Shown: in pieces, positions 8,468-34,562 of the stretch
How positions within the stretch are numbered: position 1 is the first letter of the stretch
Layout of the letters: each line of letters opens with the position of its first letter
Origin: Candidatus Sumerlaea chitinivorans
GTDB lineage: Bacteria; Sumerlaeota; Sumerlaeia; Sumerlaeales; Sumerlaeaceae
DNA length: 64,000 bases
Direction of reading: 5' to 3'
NCBI GenBank assembly: GCA_003290465.1
Contig: CP030759.1
Span: forward strand, 2,170,001 to 2,234,000
Translations under genes and position numbers: made by a program
The notes under the pieces: generated by a model
Told to the model about the DNA's origin: nothing
What the model saw: the letters and a program-made list of their open reading frames with translations, nothing else
The model's database searches: none

Positions 8468-9891
8468 CAGTCGCGAGTCGCAACGTCGAGTACCTGACCG
8501 GTCGGCCCGACAAGCTCCACCCGCAATGGCATCTGCCCGACTGCATGCGTGGAGCAGCTCAAGCACGGGTCGTAGCAGCGGATCACCGCCTCCACACGGT
8601 TGAGCATTCCCTCTTCGATCTTGTCGCCACGCACGAAATGCTTGGCCGCCTGCAGGACCCCGCGGTTCATCGCCAAGTTATTGTGGCCGGTTGCGATGAT
8701 AAGGTTCGCCCACGTCACCAGCCCATTCTCATCAATGCGGTAATGGTGTAGGAGCATGCCCCGGGGGGCCTCGCTCACGCCCACGCCTTCAAACGCGTTC
8801 GCCCCAGCGTGTGCGCGCACGTGCGGGCTCAAGATGTCCGGATCGCGCAGCGTGCGCTCCATCTGTTCGAGCGCCGCGATAATCTCAATCAGGCGCGCAT
8901 AGTGATAATGGAACGAGCTCAGGACCACGCGGCGGTCCAACTCGCGGAACTCCGCCCACTCTTCGTCAGCGCGCGGCGTGTTGCACCGATCCGCAATGTT
9001 GAGCCGCGCCAGCGGCCCCACGCGGTAGATCCCCTCGGGGTAGCCGAGCGGTTTGTAGTACGGCGACTTGAGATAACTATAGGGTTCCACCGCTTCGCCG
9101 ATGAAGTCCTGATAATTTGCGATCTCAAGCTGATCCGCAATCACGTTGCCGGCACTGTCCACCACGCGAACCTTGCCATGCGTGAAGGCCAAGTAACCGT
9201 CCTCATCCACCAGACCCATGAAGAGCGTGGGGAAGTTGGCAAAGGTTGCGATTTCCTCGCGGAACTGTTTGTACGTCTTCTTGTACCACTCGAGTGTGCG
9301 CGTGGCGATCTCCATCGCTTGCGGAATTTCGGCGAGGATCTCGTCGCGCGTTGCAGCATCCAGCGGATCACTCACGCCGCCCGGCACGACCCACGCGGGG
9401 TGAATCCGCTTGCCGGCAAGCCGCTCAATAACGCGCTGCCCGAACTTGCGCAGCGCGATTCCGTCGCGCGCGATCTGTGGATGCGATTCTGCCAGCGCGA
9501 ATAGGTGGCGCTTCGCTGGATCCGCGTCCATGCCCAGCAGAAAATCCGGTGAGGAGAGATGGAAGAAGCTCAGGGCGTGGGACTGCACAATTTGCCCAAG
9601 GTTAAGTACGTGGCGCAACATTCGACCGGTGCGTGGCACCTGTACCGCCAGAAGAGCGTCGCAGGCTTTTGCCGAGGCGATCAAGTGGCTCACCGGGCAG
9701 ATGCCGCAGGTGCGCGCCATCAACGACGGCATTTCTGCGAACGGACGCCCCTCGCAGAGCTTCTCGAAACCTCGGTACTGCGTGACATGGAACTGGGCAT
9801 CCTGCACGATGCCCTCATCGTTCAAGTAAATCGTGATCTTCGCATGTCCTTCAATGCGGGTCACGGGATCAATGGTGATTTGTTTTGCCAT
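8467..9891 (-). CDS. hoxH: NAD-linked [NiFe]-hydrogenase large subunit HoxH
   Basis: The 474-residue catalytic subunit that houses the Ni-Fe(CN)2CO centre. The proximal motif RTCGICPVSH supplies C62 and C65, and the distal motif DPCLSCSTH supplies C443 and C446. Cleavage after H449 would remove a 25-residue tail, the step done by the adjacent protease. RIEGH (12-16) near the N-terminus is also typical. The ATG at 9891 was chosen because AGGAG lies 9 bases upstream and the protein then begins exactly at the conserved ITIDPVTRIEGH; the frame continues upstream only as non-conserved residues. It would work as HoxYH with HoxEFU to couple H2 oxidation or evolution to NAD(H). Confidence 0.96.
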   Translation of the reverse strand: MAKQITIDPVTRIEGHAKITIYLNDEGIVQDAQFHVTQYRGFEKLCEGRPFAEMPSLMARTCGICPVSHLIASAKACDALLAVQVPRTGRMLRHVLNLGQIVQSHALSFFHLSSPDFLLGMDADPAKRHLFALAESHPQIARDGIALRKFGQRVIERLAGKRIHPAWVVPGGVSDPLDAATRDEILAEIPQAMEIATRTLEWYKKTYKQFREEIATFANFPTLFMGLVDEDGYLAFTHGKVRVVDSAGNVIADQLEIANYQDFIGEAVEPYSYLKSPYYKPLGYPEGIYRVGPLARLNIADRCNTPRADEEWAEFRELDRRVVLSSFHYHYARLIEIIAALEQMERTLRDPDILSPHVRAHAGANAFEGVGVSEAPRGMLLHHYRIDENGLVTWANLIIATGHNNLAMNRGVLQAAKHFVRGDKIEEGMLNRVEAVIRCYDPCLSCSTHAVGQMPLRVELVGPTGQVLDVATRD

Positions 9892-9901
9892 GATGATTCT
9901 C

Positions 9902-10441
9902 CTATGCTCCGAACCGAGTCTTGTCGCTGATGTCAGGGATTCTCCCCTCGAGAAGCTCGCTGACGACGTAGAAAATGGTGTCCGCAGAGGGTGGACAGCC
10001 GGGCACGTGGACATCCACTTTCACGAACTCGTGCACGGGACGCGCCTTCGGCAGCAACTTGGGAATGACACTCGTCGGCACTTGCTGATTGAGCGTTGCA
10101 TTTTCGAGGTAAGCGCGGCTGAGAACGTCCTTCAGCGGGAAAGGATTGCGCATGCCCGGCACGTTTGAGGTCACGGCGCAATCTCCCAGAGCCACGAGAA
10201 TGCGCGTGTGCTCACGGATCTTGCGGATCTTGGCCAAATCGTCCTCGCTGCTGACGGCGCCCTCGACAATGGTCACGTCCACCATCTCGGGGAATTCCTT
10301 CATATCGACAAGCGGACTGTAGACGAGCTCGGCCCTCTCCGCCACGGCCAACAGACGTTCGTCCAGATCCAGAAACGACATGTGGCAGCCCGAGCAGCCG
10401 TCCAGCCACACCGTTGCGATTTTTGCCTTGTTGTTGCTCAT
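9902..10441 (-). CDS. hoxY: [NiFe]-hydrogenase small subunit HoxY
   Basis: The 179-residue electron-transfer subunit carrying the proximal [4Fe-4S] cluster. Cluster cysteines are visible in DGCSGCHMS (C15, C18), GDCAV and PGCPPSA. There is no twin-arginine signal and the protein is short, as expected for cytoplasmic group 3 enzymes and unlike the exported group 1 small subunits. Its start overlaps the hoxU stop by 4 bases (ATGA), and hoxH follows after 10 bases. Confidence 0.95.
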
Positions 10442-11169
10442 TCGTGTTCCTCCCGCATCATCGTCAGGTAAGGCAAGAACTGGCGGCGCTTGGCCATCTC
10501 TGCCACGCTCTTACCTTTCTCGCTTAGCGCGCCAGTGGGGCACACGTGCACGCATTTGCTGCAACCCGTGCAGCTTTCCGCCGTTCCCCACGGCTGATTC
10601 AAGTCGGTGATCACCCGCGTCTGAATGCCGCGGTGGTAAAGATCCCACGTGTGCGCGCCCTCGATTTCGTCACACACGCGCACGCAACGCGTGCAAAGGA
10701 TGCACCGGTTGTGGTCCGCCACAAAGCGCGGATGCGAGGCGTCCACTTTAAGCTTCTGATACAAGTAGGGCACACGCACGTGCGTCATCCCTTGCCGTTG
10801 CGCCATGGCCTGAAGATCGCAGTGGCCATTCGTGACGCACACCGCGCACACATGGTTGCGTTCCGTAAACAGGAACTCGAGAATCATGCGGCGATACTTG
10901 CGCAGCCGCTCGCTATCGGTGACGACCTCCATATTCTCGTGAACGCGCGTGACGCATGCCGGCAGGAGCTTATTCACACCCTTCACTTCTACCAAACACA
11001 TGCGGCATGCGCCAACAGGCGTGAGGCCTGACAAGTGACACAACGTCGGGATTTCAATGCCATTCTCGCGCGCGACCTCAAGAATCGTCTGATCGCCCTT
11101 TGCGCTGACGTCTTTGCCGTCGATCTTGAGAGTCTTAACGCGCACCTGCGATGCAGCAGTCGTCGTCAT
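10438..11169 (-). CDS. hoxU: Hydrogenase diaphorase iron-sulfur subunit HoxU
   Basis: 243 residues, homologous to the N-terminal part of NuoG. An N-terminal plant-type [2Fe-2S] domain ([16 protein letters not shown] ... ACVT) is followed by the His-Cys3 [4Fe-4S] region ([15 protein letters not shown]) and two ferredoxin-type motifs near the C-terminus ([13 protein letters not shown] and [15 protein letters not shown]). It passes electrons between the flavin site on HoxF and the hydrogenase module. It overlaps hoxF upstream by 4 bases and hoxY downstream by 4 bases. Confidence 0.95.
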
Positions 11170-12818
11170 ACGAGCACCTCCTCACGGGCCATACGGCACA
11201 CGCCGGCCGGACACCGCTTCTCGATGATGTGAGCCTCATATTCTTTGCGGAAATACCGCAGCGTACTCACCACGGGATTCGGGGCAGTCTGGCCAAGACC
11301 GCACAGGCTCGTGTTCTTGACCATATCGCACAGCTCCTCGAGCAGCTCGAGGTCTTCCATCGTGGCCTCGCCGCGGGTCATGCGGTCCAGCAGATTGTAC
11401 ATGTGGACCGTGCCCACGCGGCACGGCACACATTTGCCGCACGACTCGGTCATGCAGAACTCCATGAAGTACTTCGCCACATCCACCATGCAGGATGTCT
11501 CGTCCATGACGATCATCCCGCCGGAGCCCATGATGGACCCCACACTGGCCAGCGATTCGTAATCCACCGGCATGTCGAGGAATTGCTCGGGGATGCAGCC
11601 GCCGGAGGGGCCACCAGTCTGAACTGCTTTGAACTTCTTCCCGTCGGGGATCCCGCCGCCAATATCGAAAATGATCTCGCGCAGCGTGATGCCCATGGGC
11701 ACTTCCACCAAACCCGTGTTCACTACGCGGCCGGCCAAGGCAAAGACCTTGGTGCCCTTGCTCTTCTCCGTCCCAATGGAGGCAAACCACTCGCCACCGT
11801 TGCGGATAATCGGCGCAATGTTCGCGAAGGTCTCGACGTTATTGATCAGCGTCGGGCAACCCCATAGACCCGATTGCGCGGGATAGGGCGGACGTGGTCG
11901 TGGCTGACCACGCTTGCCTTCGATCGAAGCAATCAGCGCTGTTTCTTCGCCGCAAACGAAGGCACCCGCGCCTAAACGGATCTCTATGCGGAAATTGAAC
12001 GTGCTACCACAGATGGAATTGCCCAAAAACCCATTCTGCTCGGCCTGTTTGATCGCTTGCTTCAGGCGCTTGATCGCCAGCGGGTACTCGGCCCGCACAT
12101 AGATGTAACCCATGTCCGCACCGACCGCATAGGCGGCGATCGCCATACCCTCGAGCACCCGGTGCGGGTCGCTCTCCAGCACGCTCCGGTCCATGAAGGC
12201 GCCGGGATCGCCCTCGTCCGCGTTACAAATCACAAACTTGCGCGACCCGACCGCCTTGGCCACCGTACTCCATTTAAGACCTGTCGGGTAGCCCGCGCCC
12301 CCACGCCCACGCAGGCCGCTCGTCGTAACCTCCTGAATCACTTCCGAGGGGGTCATTTCGGTGATGGCCTTGTAGAGGGCACCGTAGCCACCCACCGCAA
12401 CGTAGTCCTCGAACGACTCAGGATTAATGCGGCCAGCATTCTCGAGCACGATGCGCTTCTGCCGCTGGAAGAGTGGCGTGTCCGTAGGGAGGACAAGCTC
12501 GGGGACGGGGGCTTTATCGAGCGAGTCGATGATTTTCGTCGCATCCTCGGGAGTTACGGCGTGGTAAACGACCCCGTTGACGTCCAGCGCCACGAGCGGG
12601 CCGGCCGCGCAAGGCCCCAAACAGCCCACGGGCCGTACCATCACGCTCTCCTCGAGGCCGCGCTCCTTGATGGCCTGCTTTAGCGCCTCAAACACTTTGT
12701 CCGCGCCTGAGGAGAGACATCCGGCAGCCATACAGACGCCAATGCAATGCTTGTACTTCGCGAGCGCCTCGCGCCGCGAACTTGCTAAATTTTCGAGTTC
12801 TTCAGGAGAGATCGTCAT
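11166..12818 (-). CDS. hoxF: Hydrogenase diaphorase NADH/FMN-binding subunit HoxF
   Basis: 550 residues related to NuoF. The N-terminal thioredoxin-like [2Fe-2S] domain (residues ~20-110) has C-rich motifs including GCLGPC. The FMN/NADH core has [16 protein letters not shown] and [12 protein letters not shown]. The C-terminal [4Fe-4S] motif is SCGKCVPCR, with a later NTSLCGLGQ. This subunit is where NAD+ or NADH reacts. Its start overlaps the hoxE stop by 4 bases, continuing the string of coupled junctions through the operon. Confidence 0.96.
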
Positions 12819-13318
12819 GATTTCACCCTCTTTTCAATGCGCTCAAGGATTTCGGCGGACGACAACTTGCCAGCCACTTCACCATCAATCACAGCAGCCG
12901 GGGCAAGACCGCAGCAGCCGAAGCAACGCGCCGTCAGCAACGACAGCTCGCCATCCTCGCTCGTCTCACCCGGTTTAACCCCATACTTCTGCTCGATCGC
13001 CTCAATGAGATTCCCGGCGCCCTTGATATAGCAGGCTGTTCCGGTGCACACCACACAGGTGTGGCGCCCTTGAGGCTTGAGCGTAAAGAAATGATAGAAC
13101 GTGGCGACGCCGTAGACCTTACTCAGCGGCAAGTGCAACGAATAGGCAACAAACCGCATCACGTCCTCATCAAGGTAACCGAACGCTTCCTGCGCTGTGT
13201 GCAAAACCTCGATGAGGGAATGCGCCTTGTAGCCGTGCCGACGCATGGTCGCCTCGAGCAGTTTCCAACGCGTATCGTTGGAAGGAGGTGTGGGTTTAGT
13301 GTATTTTGCTTTGAGCAT
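12815..13318 (-). CDS. hoxE: Hydrogenase diaphorase subunit HoxE
   Basis: 167 residues, NuoE-like, with a thioredoxin-fold [2Fe-2S] domain whose four cysteines appear in CTGTACY and [10 protein letters not shown]. It is the first gene of the operon. A separate HoxE supports assignment to the bidirectional group 3d type (HoxEFUYH). The ATG at 13318 has a GGAGCG-like ribosome site just upstream; the 22-residue lead before the conserved region is normal for the family. Confidence 0.94.
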
Positions 13319-13349
13319 AGTTTACGCTCCTCGATCCTCGGCGGAAGAT

Positions 13350-13371
13350 AATAGAGAATTCTTTCTCTATT
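13350..13371. promoter_or_regulatory. Perfect 9-bp inverted repeat upstream of hoxE
   Basis: AATAGAGAA and TTCTCTATT are separated by TTCT, 32 bases before the hoxE ATG. On the minus strand it overlaps the AT-rich stretch most likely to hold the hox promoter -10 (TATTAT near 13351). A dimeric repressor or activator site fits better than a terminator: the arms are AT-rich and no T-run follows. The regulator is unknown. Confidence 0.5.
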
Positions 13372-13670
13372 TAGCTGTTGCGCCCGCGACGTATTTTACC
13401 GCTCATCACAACCTCTTCCGCCTTGCTTGACTTCGAATTCACCCCAACATCACACCTAAATTCAAGAAAAATTTATCGAGATTGAATTCCTTATTTGCTT
13501 TGCCTGCAAAACCCCGAGATCTCAAAGAACTATATAACCACTCCATGACAACTGCCCACTCTTTTGTAAACCTCCCCAGACCGGTCCGTCCGAGTATTCT
13601 CTGCCAAACCACAATGACTTCTACCATATCTGGACCCGACCGCGCAACATGAATTATCCTGTTTCAATCC

Positions 13671-29612: not shown

Positions 29613-31097
29613 GTGTTAGGCAACCAAAGCGATGAGCTTTGCGCGAGCACGATGCGGGAACGATTTGCTACAAGTGCGCCTTCAGAGGCTGGGAAAGGTG
29701 GCAACGCACCTGCGGTCTCGCTTCGTCGTGGCCTCCCTACCCTCTCTGCCTTCATCCTCATGGTCATCGTCCTGCTCATCTTTAATCTTTCTTCGCTGCG
29801 GCTCGTGCGTCTGTTGGAGGCCTCAAAGGAAAGTGATTTAGGGCAGCGCATGGTAGCGGTCGGACGCATGATTGCCTACCACCTGCGCCAACCCAGCCCG
29901 CCCGTGATCCTCTCGCTGGTAAGCGAGTTGCCCATCGATCAGCAGGCCGACAAACTTGAGGACTTTGCAGCCACGACCGTTTATGAGAAGCTGATCCAAC
30001 GCTTAAGCGAGATGAAGCGGCTGAACAACCTCGCGGCGCTCACGCTGCTCACCGTCCAGGGGCTCGTGGTGGCAGACGCCGACGAGAAAATGGCGCCGGC
30101 CTCACCATACTTGTACAACGAGGTGGATGCTGAGCCCTTGAGCCGTGCTGCGACGGGTCAAGTCGCACAAATGCGCCTCTATCCGATCGGGGACACGCTT
30201 TACAAACGCGTCTATGTGCCGATCGTCTCGGAAGGCAAACCGCTCGGGATTCTTGCACTGTCAGCAAGTGCGGACTACTTCGCCGCCTTACGTGAGGTGC
30301 AACGCCGAGCCCGTGTCCAGATGATCCTCAGTTCTGCCCTGCTGATCGCAATCGGGGTGCTCGTTCATCGCCTCTTCTCTTTCATCGTCAAAGCCGAGGC
30401 TCGAGCCCTACGTCTTGCACGCATGGAAGCGATGGCCTCGCTTGCCGGCGGGGTCGCCCACGAACTGCGCAACCCTCTCTCCATCATTCGAATGATGTGC
30501 GAGGAGATTCTTGCGGATCTACCGCCCGAAAGTCGCAGCGCCCGCAATGCCCGCGACATCATCGGCGAGGTGGACCGACTCAATGAGCTTGTTTACCAAT
30601 TCCTGTCGCTCGCAAAGCCACCTGATTTTTCAAAGGCAGAGCCTGTGGACCTTGTGGCGGAGGTCCGACGCACCGCCGAGCTCCTCCGCAAAAGCTCTCC
30701 TCAGGCGTTCGCACTAGAGCTGAATTTGCCAACTGCCCCTCTGCGCGTGCAAGCCGACGAGCGCGCCCTTCGGCAAGTTTTACTCAATCTCCTGCTCAAT
30801 GCGCGCGACGCTGTGGCTGAAAATGGTGGGCGTGTGAGTGTCACGGTCACCGAGCGACGCGATATGGCGGAAGTGCGCATCGCTGACACGGGGCCGGGCA
30901 TCGCGCAACGCGACCTCGAGCGCGTTTTCGACCCGTTTTTCACCACCAAACCGACCGGCTCGGGCTTGGGACTTGCCATCTCACGGAACCTCGTCCAAAA
31001 CATGGGTGGAGAAATCTCACTAACGAGCTGCGTCGGCAAGGGAACCGAGGTCTGTGTGCGCCTTCCGCTTCGTCGCAGCATGACCCTGCGCGGCTAA
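29613..31097 (+). CDS. Membrane sensor histidine kinase
   Basis: 494 residues. TM1 (~43-62) and TM2 (~228-250) flank a periplasmic sensor of ~160 residues. The HisKA box is GGVAHELRNPLS, and the ATPase domain shows N (NARDAV), G1 (DTGPGI), F (FDPFFTT) and G2 (GSGLGLAI) boxes, NtrB-like. No response regulator is next to it, so its partner is unknown. The start is uncertain: GTG at 29613 or ATG at 29652, neither with a good ribosome site. Confidence 0.88.
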   Translation: MLGNQSDELCASTMRERFATSAPSEAGKGGNAPAVSLRRGLPTLSAFILMVIVLLIFNLSSLRLVRLLEASKESDLGQRMVAVGRMIAYHLRQPSPPVILSLVSELPIDQQADKLEDFAATTVYEKLIQRLSEMKRLNNLAALTLLTVQGLVVADADEKMAPASPYLYNEVDAEPLSRAATGQVAQMRLYPIGDTLYKRVYVPIVSEGKPLGILALSASADYFAALREVQRRARVQMILSSALLIAIGVLVHRLFSFIVKAEARALRLARMEAMASLAGGVAHELRNPLSIIRMMCEEILADLPPESRSARNARDIIGEVDRLNELVYQFLSLAKPPDFSKAEPVDLVAEVRRTAELLRKSSPQAFALELNLPTAPLRVQADERALRQVLLNLLLNARDAVAENGGRVSVTVTERRDMAEVRIADTGPGIAQRDLERVFDPFFTTKPTGSGLGLAISRNLVQNMGGEISLTSCVGKGTEVCVRLPLRRSMTLRG

Positions 31098-31170: not shown

Positions 31171-32946
31171 TTGGCAAAGGACGTCCCTACCGCTGAACTC
31201 AAAGGCGGTGTGGCTGATTCCAAACATACGAACCGTGATAGGGCAAGCGAGCTTTGGCACACGATCCAGCACTCAACTCATAATCCCACTGGTGCCCATG
31301 CAGAATCTCTTTGTGGCGCATTGCGAGACTCGAGTTTGATCTTTGCGTACGCGTTTTTTCCCCACCTCTGCCGCTATCCCTTCTCCCGCATGCATGTGGA
31401 ACTCTTCGAGCGCTACGACACCACGACGCGTTCGCACCTCCCGTATCGCGCCGGCAAACGCTTTGCGTTGGCCGCACCACGTGGTTACGCAAAATCCACA
31501 CTCCATTCGTTAATCCTCCCCCTGGCCGACCTATGCTTTAGGCGCGAACAATTCATCGTCATCGTGAGTGCAACGTTTTTGCAGGCTGCAACTCGCCTGC
31601 GCGCCCTGCGTGCGGAACTTGCGTCGAATCCTGCACTGCGGGCAGCCTTCCCGCATCTGGCACAACCGCCGACAGAGGCAAATCGCCAGACGCTCTGCGT
31701 AGCGGGCATGCGCATATCAGCGTTTGGTGCCGGAGCAGAGATGAGGGGCCTGACTCATAACGGCTGGCGCCCAACCAAAATCATTCTCGATGACGTTGAG
31801 GACTCCGAGCGCGTCCTATCCGCGCGACTGCGCGACGCCACTGAGGCGTGGTTCCACGAAGTCATTGTGCCACTCGGCGATACGACCACCCATATTGAAG
31901 TCGTTGGTACACTTCTGCATCGCGAGTCCCTTCTTGCAAAGCTCCTGCATGCTCCCGCTTTCGAAACGCGCCTTTACCGAGCCGTCGAGGCATGGCCGGA
32001 CCGCGAAGACCTTTGGGCGGAGTGGCGTCGCCTGCGCTCGAACCCTGAGGATCCGCAACGCACAACGACTGCGACACAGTTTTTCCACGAAAACCGAGAG
32101 GCGATGCTTCGCGGCGGTTGCGTGCTTTGGCCAGAGAAGGAATCGCTCCCCCAGCTGATGGAGCTTATGCTGACGCAAGGACGGGTGGCATTCTTCCAAG
32201 AAAAACAAAACGAACCACCCGCCGGCGCAGGCGCTCTCTTCGACGTCGAGGGTTGGCAGCGCTTTACCATCCGTGAGGATGGCCAAATTGTTTCGGCTCA
32301 GGCGAGGGATCCAGCGATCGGCTCGTCAAGCCGCTCGCCTCGTGCACTCAACGACACGGCGCCCGCCACAGATGCTTCCGCCGAGCCGAAATCCCCCAAC
32401 GTGCGCGAACTTGAGGTCGTTGGATTCTTGGACCCAGCATTGGGCGGGGGCGACTACGCCGCAATCGCCACTGTGGGACGGGATCGCCGCGGAGTCCTCT
32501 ACGTTCTTGACGTCTGGATGGCTCGCGTGCCACCAGCTCAGCAAGTTGCTCGCGCATTTGAACTTCACTCGCGCTGGGGTTACAGCCGTTTCGGTTTCGA
32601 AGCAAACGCGTTTCAGGTCATGCTCACCCGCGCCTTCGAACTCGAACTGCAGCATCGCGTTCAAGCTCATCGCCCAGCACAGATGCGCTTCGTCGGCATC
32701 AAGAATCGCGCACCCAAAGCAACTCGGATTGCAGCGCTCGAACCGCTTGCAGCGGCTGGGTGGTTACGCTTCCACGAGGCGTTGTCTCCAACATTCCTCC
32801 ATGAAGCGGCGGCTTATCCTTGCGGCCAAACCGATGACGGACTGGACGCGGTTGCGGGTGCTGTGGCATTGCTCACCACCCATTTTACGCATCGTGTGGT
32901 AAGCACTGTTGCGATCCCTACGCGTCGCCATCTGCCAAACTTTTAA
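31171..32946 (+). CDS. Phage-type terminase large subunit (orphan)
   Basis: A 591-residue protein with both terminase activities. The packaging ATPase has a Walker A-like AAPRGYAKST (101-110), Walker B with catalytic acid ILDDVE (205-210), and VVGTLLH (244-250) as the coupling segment. The RNase H-fold nuclease follows: D421 in FLDPALGGGDY, E477 in FEAN, and the DDGLD acids (555-559). A Ser/Pro/Ala-rich linker (~372-412) separates them. All catalytic residues are present and the frame is full length. No small terminase, portal, capsid or integrase gene adjoins; neighbours are a histidine kinase and lysA. TTG at 31171 is the assumed start; the N-terminus is poorly conserved, so a later start is possible. 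Confidence 0.85.
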   Translation: MAKDVPTAELKGGVADSKHTNRDRASELWHTIQHSTHNPTGAHAESLCGALRDSSLIFAYAFFPHLCRYPFSRMHVELFERYDTTTRSHLPYRAGKRFALAAPRGYAKSTLHSLILPLADLCFRREQFIVIVSATFLQAATRLRALRAELASNPALRAAFPHLAQPPTEANRQTLCVAGMRISAFGAGAEMRGLTHNGWRPTKIILDDVEDSERVLSARLRDATEAWFHEVIVPLGDTTTHIEVVGTLLHRESLLAKLLHAPAFETRLYRAVEAWPDREDLWAEWRRLRSNPEDPQRTTTATQFFHENREAMLRGGCVLWPEKESLPQLMELMLTQGRVAFFQEKQNEPPAGAGALFDVEGWQRFTIREDGQIVSAQARDPAIGSSSRSPRALNDTAPATDASAEPKSPNVRELEVVGFLDPALGGGDYAAIATVGRDRRGVLYVLDVWMARVPPAQQVARAFELHSRWGYSRFGFEANAFQVMLTRAFELELQHRVQAHRPAQMRFVGIKNRAPKATRIAALEPLAAAGWLRFHEALSPTFLHEAAAYPCGQTDDGLDAVAGAVALLTTHFTHRVVSTVAIPTRRHLPNF

Positions 32947-33118: not shown

Positions 33119-34405
33119 TTAGCTAAGTGGCTCGTCCGTCTCGAGCTTGACCACGTCCTCGAGCGTCTCGCGCCGCGAAATAAGTACGCGGCTTCCATCC
33201 TCCTCGACCCACACCTGTGGGGCCCGGCCCAACGAGTTGTAGTTGGAGCTCATCACGTAGCCGTAAGCACCGCCATCATGAATGCAGAGAAAATCCCCTC
33301 GCTCGGGTCGCGGGAGACGCCGTGGCGCAATGAAGTCCGACGCATCGCGCGTAAACACGTCGCCCGATTCACAAAGGGGGCCGGCCACCACCACGTCGTG
33401 GGGCGGATTGCCCGCCCCGCGTCCCACGACGCTCATCCGGTGATAAGAGCCATACATGGCTGGCCGAATCAAATCCACGAATCCGGCATCCACCATGACA
33501 AATGTCTGGCCCGTGCCCTTCTCGTTTGTTCCGGTGCGCTTCACATCGGTCACTCGCGCCACAAGTGTTGCGCACGGTGCCACAAAGTAGCGGCCGGGCT
33601 CTATCTCAATGCGTAGGGGGTGTCCCGCTCCACCCTCAATCACCTTTCGCGCCTCGACAAACAACTGCGCGAGCGGCTGAATTTCCACTGGTGGCTCGAA
33701 TTCCTTGTAGGTGTGTGGGATGCCTCCCCCAAGACTCACTGCCTCCAGATGGGGAATGCGCGGAGCTAAGGCCGCAAATTCGCGGGCAAGGCGCTCAAGA
33801 TTCGCAAGTAGCTCTTCGATCTTGGGGCCACTTCCGATGTGCGCATGCAGCATCACCACCTGCATGCCGGCAGCTTCGGCCTCCGCGAGCGTTGGCTCGA
33901 GATACTCGTACCAAATCCCGTGCTTGGAACTCGGGCCACCTGTATCGCAGGCGTTGACGTGGCCGTGCCCAAAGCCCGGATTGACACGAATCGCGATTGG
34001 CCCACGGTAACCCGCGGAGCGGAGCTCCGCAACCATGCCGGGCGAGCCCACGTTTGGCAGGATCCCATGCTCGAGGACAACCTGCAGCGCGTTATCGCGA
34101 AAAACATCGGCCGTCAGCACAATCTGCGGTGGATTGTTGCCGGCAGTGTAGCCCACACGAAGGGCGCGCAGCACCTCGTTGCCCGAAACGGCGTCAATCC
34201 AGATTCCTTCCCGACGCATTTCCTCCAGCACCCGCCACGTCGAGAGGGCTTTCATCGCGTAGCGTAGCTGAATGCCCGCCGGCGCGGCCACGGCTTTAAG
34301 CTCGCGAATTCTCTGGCGCAAGGTCGCGGCGTCGATCAGCCAAAACGGTGTGCCAACTTTCTTTGCAATCTCGTCAAGCTCCTGAAACGTTCGGGGCGAC
34401 CCCAT
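33119..34405 (-). CDS. lysA: Diaminopimelate decarboxylase
   Basis: About 428 residues, a PLP-dependent fold III enzyme converting meso-diaminopimelate to lysine. The PLP lysine is in YAMKAL. HAHIGSG and the GGGIP motif bind the phosphate, EPGRYF binds the cofactor ring, and CESGDVF carries the catalytic cysteine from the partner subunit. The ATG at 34405 follows GGGAGA by nine bases; GTG at 34420 is an alternative. Last gene of a probable minus-strand unit with the SDR and TPR genes upstream. Confidence 0.93.
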   Translation of the reverse strand: MGSPRTFQELDEIAKKVGTPFWLIDAATLRQRIRELKAVAAPAGIQLRYAMKALSTWRVLEEMRREGIWIDAVSGNEVLRALRVGYTAGNNPPQIVLTADVFRDNALQVVLEHGILPNVGSPGMVAELRSAGYRGPIAIRVNPGFGHGHVNACDTGGPSSKHGIWYEYLEPTLAEAEAAGMQVVMLHAHIGSGPKIEELLANLERLAREFAALAPRIPHLEAVSLGGGIPHTYKEFEPPVEIQPLAQLFVEARKVIEGGAGHPLRIEIEPGRYFVAPCATLVARVTDVKRTGTNEKGTGQTFVMVDAGFVDLIRPAMYGSYHRMSVVGRGAGNPPHDVVVAGPLCESGDVFTRDASDFIAPRRLPRPERGDFLCIHDGGAYGYVMSSNYNSLGRAPQVWVEEDGSRVLISRRETLEDVVKLETDEPLS

Positions 34406-34562
34406 ACACATTTCTCCCACACTTAGGTAATCAAAAACCTGTCAGCGTGAAGGCCGAGAGGACGACAAAGCACCAACTGTTGGAGTTGCTAACGCCACTC
34501 GTGTTGGAGATTCCGGCGCGCCGTGGGGCTTCTGCCCCATACCAAGGCATCGTGGCGTACCG

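Follow-up and report, generated by a model that had tools for sequence, protein, structure and literature searches.

A conserved terminase gene of Sumerlaeota and a distant phage-head cluster: candidate parts of a gene transfer agent-like particle

Gene transfer agents (GTAs) are caudovirion-like particles that carry mostly random host DNA and deliver it to other cells, and their head is too small to package all of their own genes (PMC9662315). The families formally classified in 2022 come from alphaproteobacteria and Brachyspira: RcGTA (Rhodogtaviriformidae), BaGTA (Bartogtaviriformidae) and BhGTA/VSH-1 (Brachygtaviriformidae). RcGTA genes are spread over five loci, and those of BhGTA have no synteny between species (PMC9662315). 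Encapsulins are another case of domesticated HK97-fold shell proteins.

The locus described here belongs to Candidatus Sumerlaea chitinivorans, of the Sumerlaeota, a lineage without a pure culture (PMC8092238). The window, that is, the whole stretch of DNA that was analysed, spans 64,000 nucleotides (contig CP030759.1, positions 2,170,001 to 2,234,000). An initial annotation had noticed in it an intact large terminase subunit (TerL) gene with no other phage gene beside it, and had proposed that selection preserved it, one option being a GTA-like packaging system whose components are dispersed. In the papers searched on Sumerlaeota/BRC1 in connection with terminases or gene transfer agents, we found no description of such a system.

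Two groups of phages come close to this gene. The D3112/B3-like transposable Pseudomonas phages (MP38, JBD24, LPB1) have a PHROG 38 TerL approximately 31% identical to the one in the window; these are complete phages, whereas Sumerlaeota show only head and packaging genes, at two loci. The nearest TerL relatives, forming a sister clade at approximately 31-37% identity, are IMG/VR phages (L151-L169) and a prophage-like locus of Chitinivibrionales (L092). Unlike in Sumerlaeota, their TerL sits in an array TerS - TerL - SPP1-type portal - capsid.

The terminase gene and its neighbourhood

The gene at 31171-32946 (+) is an intact open reading frame encoding 591 aa, with a TTG start and no internal stop, and the 3.29-Mb single-contig genome holds no second match of this type. 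In a profile search, residues 49-576 matched the PHROG 38 terminase large subunit (E 8.1e-83), which makes it a full-length member of that family. The NCBIfam model of T7-type TerL gave 5e-15, below the cut-off of the model, the Pfam Terminase_6C match was weak (0.0044), and a PDB sequence search gave no match. The AlphaFold model (mean pLDDT 84.9) matched solved terminases in both the ATPase and the nuclease domains, with Z scores of 24.1 for 8dgc_E, 19.8 for the T4 gp17 ATPase (2o0h) and 17.0 for the TerL nuclease of phage G20c (5m1o).

The ATPase motor occupies residues ~50-350 and the RNase H-fold nuclease residues ~352-570, followed by a basic C-terminal tail ending in Phe. Active-site positions, all on the + strand, were compared among orthologs. 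In the Walker A region APRGYAKST (residues 102-110, 31474..31500), A102, P103, R104, G105, A107 and K108 are invariant among 26 orthologs; in the Walker B LDD (residues 206-208, 31786..31794), D207 and D208 are invariant and are kept in phage homologs, as is the coupling motif GTLLH (residues 246-250). Among the nuclease acids, D421 and D428 (32431..32454) are invariant and kept in Sumerlaeota, sister phages and Planctomycetota relatives, E477 (32599..32601) is invariant, and D555, D556 and D559 (32833..32847) are nearly so. Thus the ATPase motifs and RNase H-type nuclease acids expected of PHROG 38 are intact, and Walker A, Walker B, coupling motif and nuclease acids are conserved both in Sumerlaeota orthologs and in phage homologs. 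The initial description of a full-length protein with its catalytic residues in place was borne out by the phrog_38 match, the structure and the conservation. Its exact start is uncertain: besides TTG 31171, the sequence offers GTG 31210 and TTG 31321. Conservation begins at about residue 56, so the start must be upstream of ~31336.

The C-terminal tail (32887..32943, +) is basic and disordered (pLDDT below 50), and its last residue is aromatic. Of the 31 complete Sumerlaeota C-termini, 27 close with F or Y, preceded by a variable basic tail, compared with 7% F/Y/W among other genes at these loci; the four C-termini without it are all in the window's family. In some phages, such as T3 and lambda, the C-terminus docks TerL on the portal. 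The tail may therefore be a portal-docking tail, and perhaps the mark of a retained partner.

On either side of TerL lie a histidine kinase gene (29613..31097, +) and lysA, encoding diaminopimelate decarboxylase (33119..34420, -), both identified by Pfam. They are neighbours only: nothing shown so far ties the kinase to the system, and lysA served as our control gene. The kinase gene, which has the same orientation, ends 73 bases before TerL, and the two could be co-transcribed in this species; the pairing is not conserved in relatives. The isolation of TerL noted at first was confirmed, as no phage gene was seen beside it and no other head-system gene was found in the 64-kb window. Across Sumerlaeota it is surrounded by common chromosomal genes, among them those for EPSP synthase, thymidylate kinase and Lon, gene order around it being partly kept within genera and not between families, and across the phylum no neighbour is conserved above genus level. 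A wider prophage in the same place, which would have argued against the initial proposal, was not seen in any relative. Synteny between TerL and lysA, suggested as a check, proved not to be conserved across the phylum. This leaves the idea unharmed: around lysA in the window only the three-gene operon lysA-epimerase-TPR keeps its order across the phylum, and since the lysA region also loses order, lost synteny is the norm here and does not point to mobility of TerL.

Distribution and inheritance of TerL in the phylum

TerL orthologs were found in 33 of 40 Sumerlaeota genomes, most of which are incomplete metagenome-assembled genomes (MAGs), and in 18 of the 20 high-quality ones. The gene is thus about as frequent as lysA (35/40 and 18/20). 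The seven genomes with no TerL match are mostly incomplete MAGs, the high-quality ones being G035 and G006, and in three MAGs the gene carries a stop or a frame break. Such losses and disruptions are too few to overturn the proposal of preservation.

In the TerL tree, the Sumerlaeota sequences form one clade (support 100/99) apart from phages, with IMG/VR phage contigs as nearest neighbours. All six GTDB families represented by several sequences are monophyletic, and family labels change 10 times along the tree, the minimum possible, against 25 in shuffles; GTDB family labels, together with a single control gene, stand here for the host phylogeny. Where computable, dN/dS was ~0.13-0.39, values that are approximate, many synonymous distances being large. 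Taken together, these sequence comparisons indicate that TerL is under purifying selection and vertically inherited. It is not a decaying prophage remnant, the sporadic distribution against host phylogeny expected of remnants being absent among these genomes, and the preservation by selection proposed at the outset is upheld. One genome (G033) has two copies (L034, L048) that are sisters in the tree, i.e. a duplication within the lineage.

Other TerL relatives occur in Planctomycetota and Omnitrophota (L100-L145, e.g. L104:5781-14911), in a recurrent module with a ParB-N/N6-N4 DNA methyltransferase (20/21 loci), an HTH protein that is perhaps a TerS (15/21), a large serine recombinase (11/21) and, often, DUF2924 and HARE-HTH genes. 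Portal and capsid genes of the kinds tested were not found in it. This module is possibly a packaging-only mobile element or satellite.

A head-gene cluster elsewhere on the chromosome

Several portal and capsid models found nothing in the window's genome: for the portal, PF04860 and the SPP1-type portal of the sister phages, and for the capsid, PF05065 and the capsid protein of the sister phages. Only with PF06074, the Mu-type portal, after these four models had failed, did a candidate partner of TerL emerge. This profile matched 32 of 40 Sumerlaeota genomes, and in the window's genome it hit G000:C1:2335911-2337116 (-), with E ~5.3e-92 to 7.5e-92. The match belongs to a compact phage-head cluster on the same chromosome, outside the window and ~130 kb from TerL, at ~2330817-2337464 in genome coordinates (locus L277), with all genes on one strand.

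In L277 coordinates, the Mu-type portal gene (11663-13465, PF06074) is accompanied by genes for a head maturation protease (10514-11587, phrog_976, 1.4e-39), a cement protein (10067-10456, PF09956, 2.6e-6) and the major capsid protein (9069-10007, phrog_1005 major head protein, 3.9e-76). After the capsid gene come genes for a 111-aa protein, a 270-aa lipoprotein-like protein and one of 209 aa that probably has a membrane helix, the last two descriptions being read from the sequences. Flanking genes resemble prfB, an acyl/acetyl-CoA synthetase gene and clpB, again as judged from their sequences. The same order, portal - protease - cement - capsid protein, is found again in genomes across Sumerlaeota. 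A search with the capsid protein, which found the window genome's own copy at E 5.9e-167, was positive in 34 of 40 genomes and in 18 of the 20 high-quality ones. Its structural model is of moderate quality (pLDDT 65.8), yet clearly HK97-like, with Z 18.6 against 3bjq, a phage-related protein, and Z 11-13 against many phage capsids.

The search for portal, capsid and small-terminase genes elsewhere, suggested together with the initial proposal, was therefore positive for the first two. With the Terminase_2 profile (PF03592), no small terminase was found in the window's genome, and matches in the phylum were sporadic, none being conserved. We also considered whether the capsid protein is an encapsulin. 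This was ruled out, as it matches phrog_1005 and the window's genome has no match to PF04454; true encapsulins are limited to 5 of the 40 genomes (G014, G015, G016, G036 and G037, in families f11 and f14). The Sumerlaeota cluster differs from encapsulins in its retained portal, protease and cement genes and in having a motor for DNA packaging.

Trees of the portal and of the capsid protein follow the same families as TerL, except for a second, long-branched portal of G031 that falls outside. TerL distances correlate with portal distances (Mantel r 0.82, p 1e-4) and with capsid distances (r 0.65, p 1e-4). Between the window's genome and G029, dN was 0.23 for the capsid protein and 0.21 for lysA, i.e. 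no greater divergence than for lysA. In two families other than the window's, TerL lies within ~10 kb of the head cluster: it adjoins the end of the cluster in G019, and is ~8 kb from the portal in G028. This linkage suggests an earlier arrangement in which the motor gene lay with the head genes. The parts at another locus that a scattered GTA-like system predicts were thus found, and they co-diverge with TerL.

In the tree, the Sumerlaeota capsid proteins form a clade distinct from those of phages, and a single "viral" contig falls inside it (L288). This short IMG/VR contig and another one, L289, encode a capsid protein 58% identical to that of the window's genome. L288 carries the same gene order as well, and is probably a fragment of a Sumerlaeota chromosome misfiled as a virus.

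A GTA-like particle and the alternatives

Three features that define GTAs and can be read in sequences were found in this system. TerL, portal, protease, cement and capsid proteins match phage families, as expected of caudoviricete-derived proteins; the genes are endogenized over several loci, TerL and the head cluster being ~130 kb apart and each among housekeeping genes; and inheritance is vertical, with co-diversification with the hosts, as represented by GTDB family labels. In all this the Sumerlaeota set of packaging and head genes is like GTAs. Unlike them, it has a portal of the Mu type (PF06074) and a capsid protein matching phrog_1005 and is kept across the whole phylum, and no tail genes were detected in the window's family. 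We call it GTA-like rather than filing it as a proven GTA.

From the gene content and its history, we consider it likely that TerL serves as the motor, now separated from the head genes, of an ancient GTA-like particle passed on vertically, and that Sumerlaeota probably produce their own virus-like particles, for instance a gene transfer agent. A more specific version, to which we give somewhat better than even chances, is that of an independently domesticated GTA, unrelated to the known families and phylum-wide since the class-level ancestor, whose motor gene became detached in most lineages. A domesticated phage head system would have come down from the class-level ancestor of Sumerlaeota, and then been retained. 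The capsid protein would build the head around the portal, the protease processing it and the cement protein stiffening it. TerL would dock on the portal, perhaps via its basic-aromatic tail, pump DNA into the head with ATP and cut it with its nuclease. As replication, integration and small-terminase genes were not seen at the loci, host DNA would probably be packaged without a specific start site, as in gene transfer agents. The most likely use would be to carry pieces of the chromosome from one cell to its kin.

The chief rival is a domesticated tailless capsid that would package DNA or another cargo within the cell, serving storage, protection, or the uptake or repair of DNA, without transfer. 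The cluster in the window's family, which holds only head genes plus the lipoprotein-like and probable membrane proteins, would fit it. In families f10-f13, however, the head genes are followed by conserved tail-like genes, which encode a head-tail adaptor (phrog_195, 1e-12), a large protein resembling a tail hub and one resembling a fibre, the last two labels being our reading of the sequences. The tail-hub-like protein is present in 26 of 40 genomes; the window's genome has no homolog, and the rest of its family only a weak match, in G031. The ancestral gene set, judged by these clusters, looked like that of a tailed particle, and in the window's family tail genes may have diverged or may lie at another place. 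We regard the tailless capsid as unlikely, if the most serious competitor.

Another possibility is that TerL was domesticated by itself, to process chromosomal DNA, and that the head cluster is a separate relic or system. TerL is indeed far from the cluster in most genomes, and its nearest phage relatives mostly carry an SPP1-type and not a Mu-type portal, so that motor and head may differ in phage origin; the transposable Pseudomonas phages, which resemble TerL, also turn up among the portal matches, where Pseudomonas phages outnumber every other group. Some genomes also hold one part without the other: in the high-quality G006, portal and capsid protein were found and TerL was not detected, and G022 has TerL without portal and capsid protein. 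Among the 40 mostly incomplete genomes, the presence and absence of TerL and portal do not by themselves show a significant association (p 0.13), and for TerL and the capsid protein p is 0.055. Against separate fates stand the co-divergence of the three proteins, the linkage in G019 and G028, the retained C-terminal tail, and G035, from which TerL, portal and capsid protein are all absent. A lone domesticated TerL therefore appears quite improbable to us.

Remnants of independent infections in each genome are already contradicted by the trees, in which one Sumerlaeota clade tracks host taxonomy with the minimum of label changes, and by purifying selection, housekeeping neighbours and the gene order partly kept within genera. 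Neither at TerL nor at the head cluster do head, tail, replication and integration genes occur together. A few genomes do hold separate prophages with a diverged TerL (G022:C7, G028:C30 and G013:C26), and we leave recurrent prophages only a very small chance as an explanation of the conserved genes. The region in G013:C26 (L067) has next to its diverged TerL a Mu-type portal, a capsid protein and a tail-hub-like gene, and is a possible relative of the domesticated phage. Least probable of all is an anti-phage decoy, in which the host TerL and portal would poison packaging by infecting phages: related phages with homologous packaging genes exist, but no defence family recurs beside TerL or matches it, and a full catalytic centre and lysA-level constraint on the capsid protein exceed what a decoy needs.

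If the GTA-like reading is true, phage heads can be domesticated once and retained over very long times, and Sumerlaeota would have a mechanism for gene exchange. A lone terminase gene could then flag a hidden system whose portal and capsid genes lie elsewhere.
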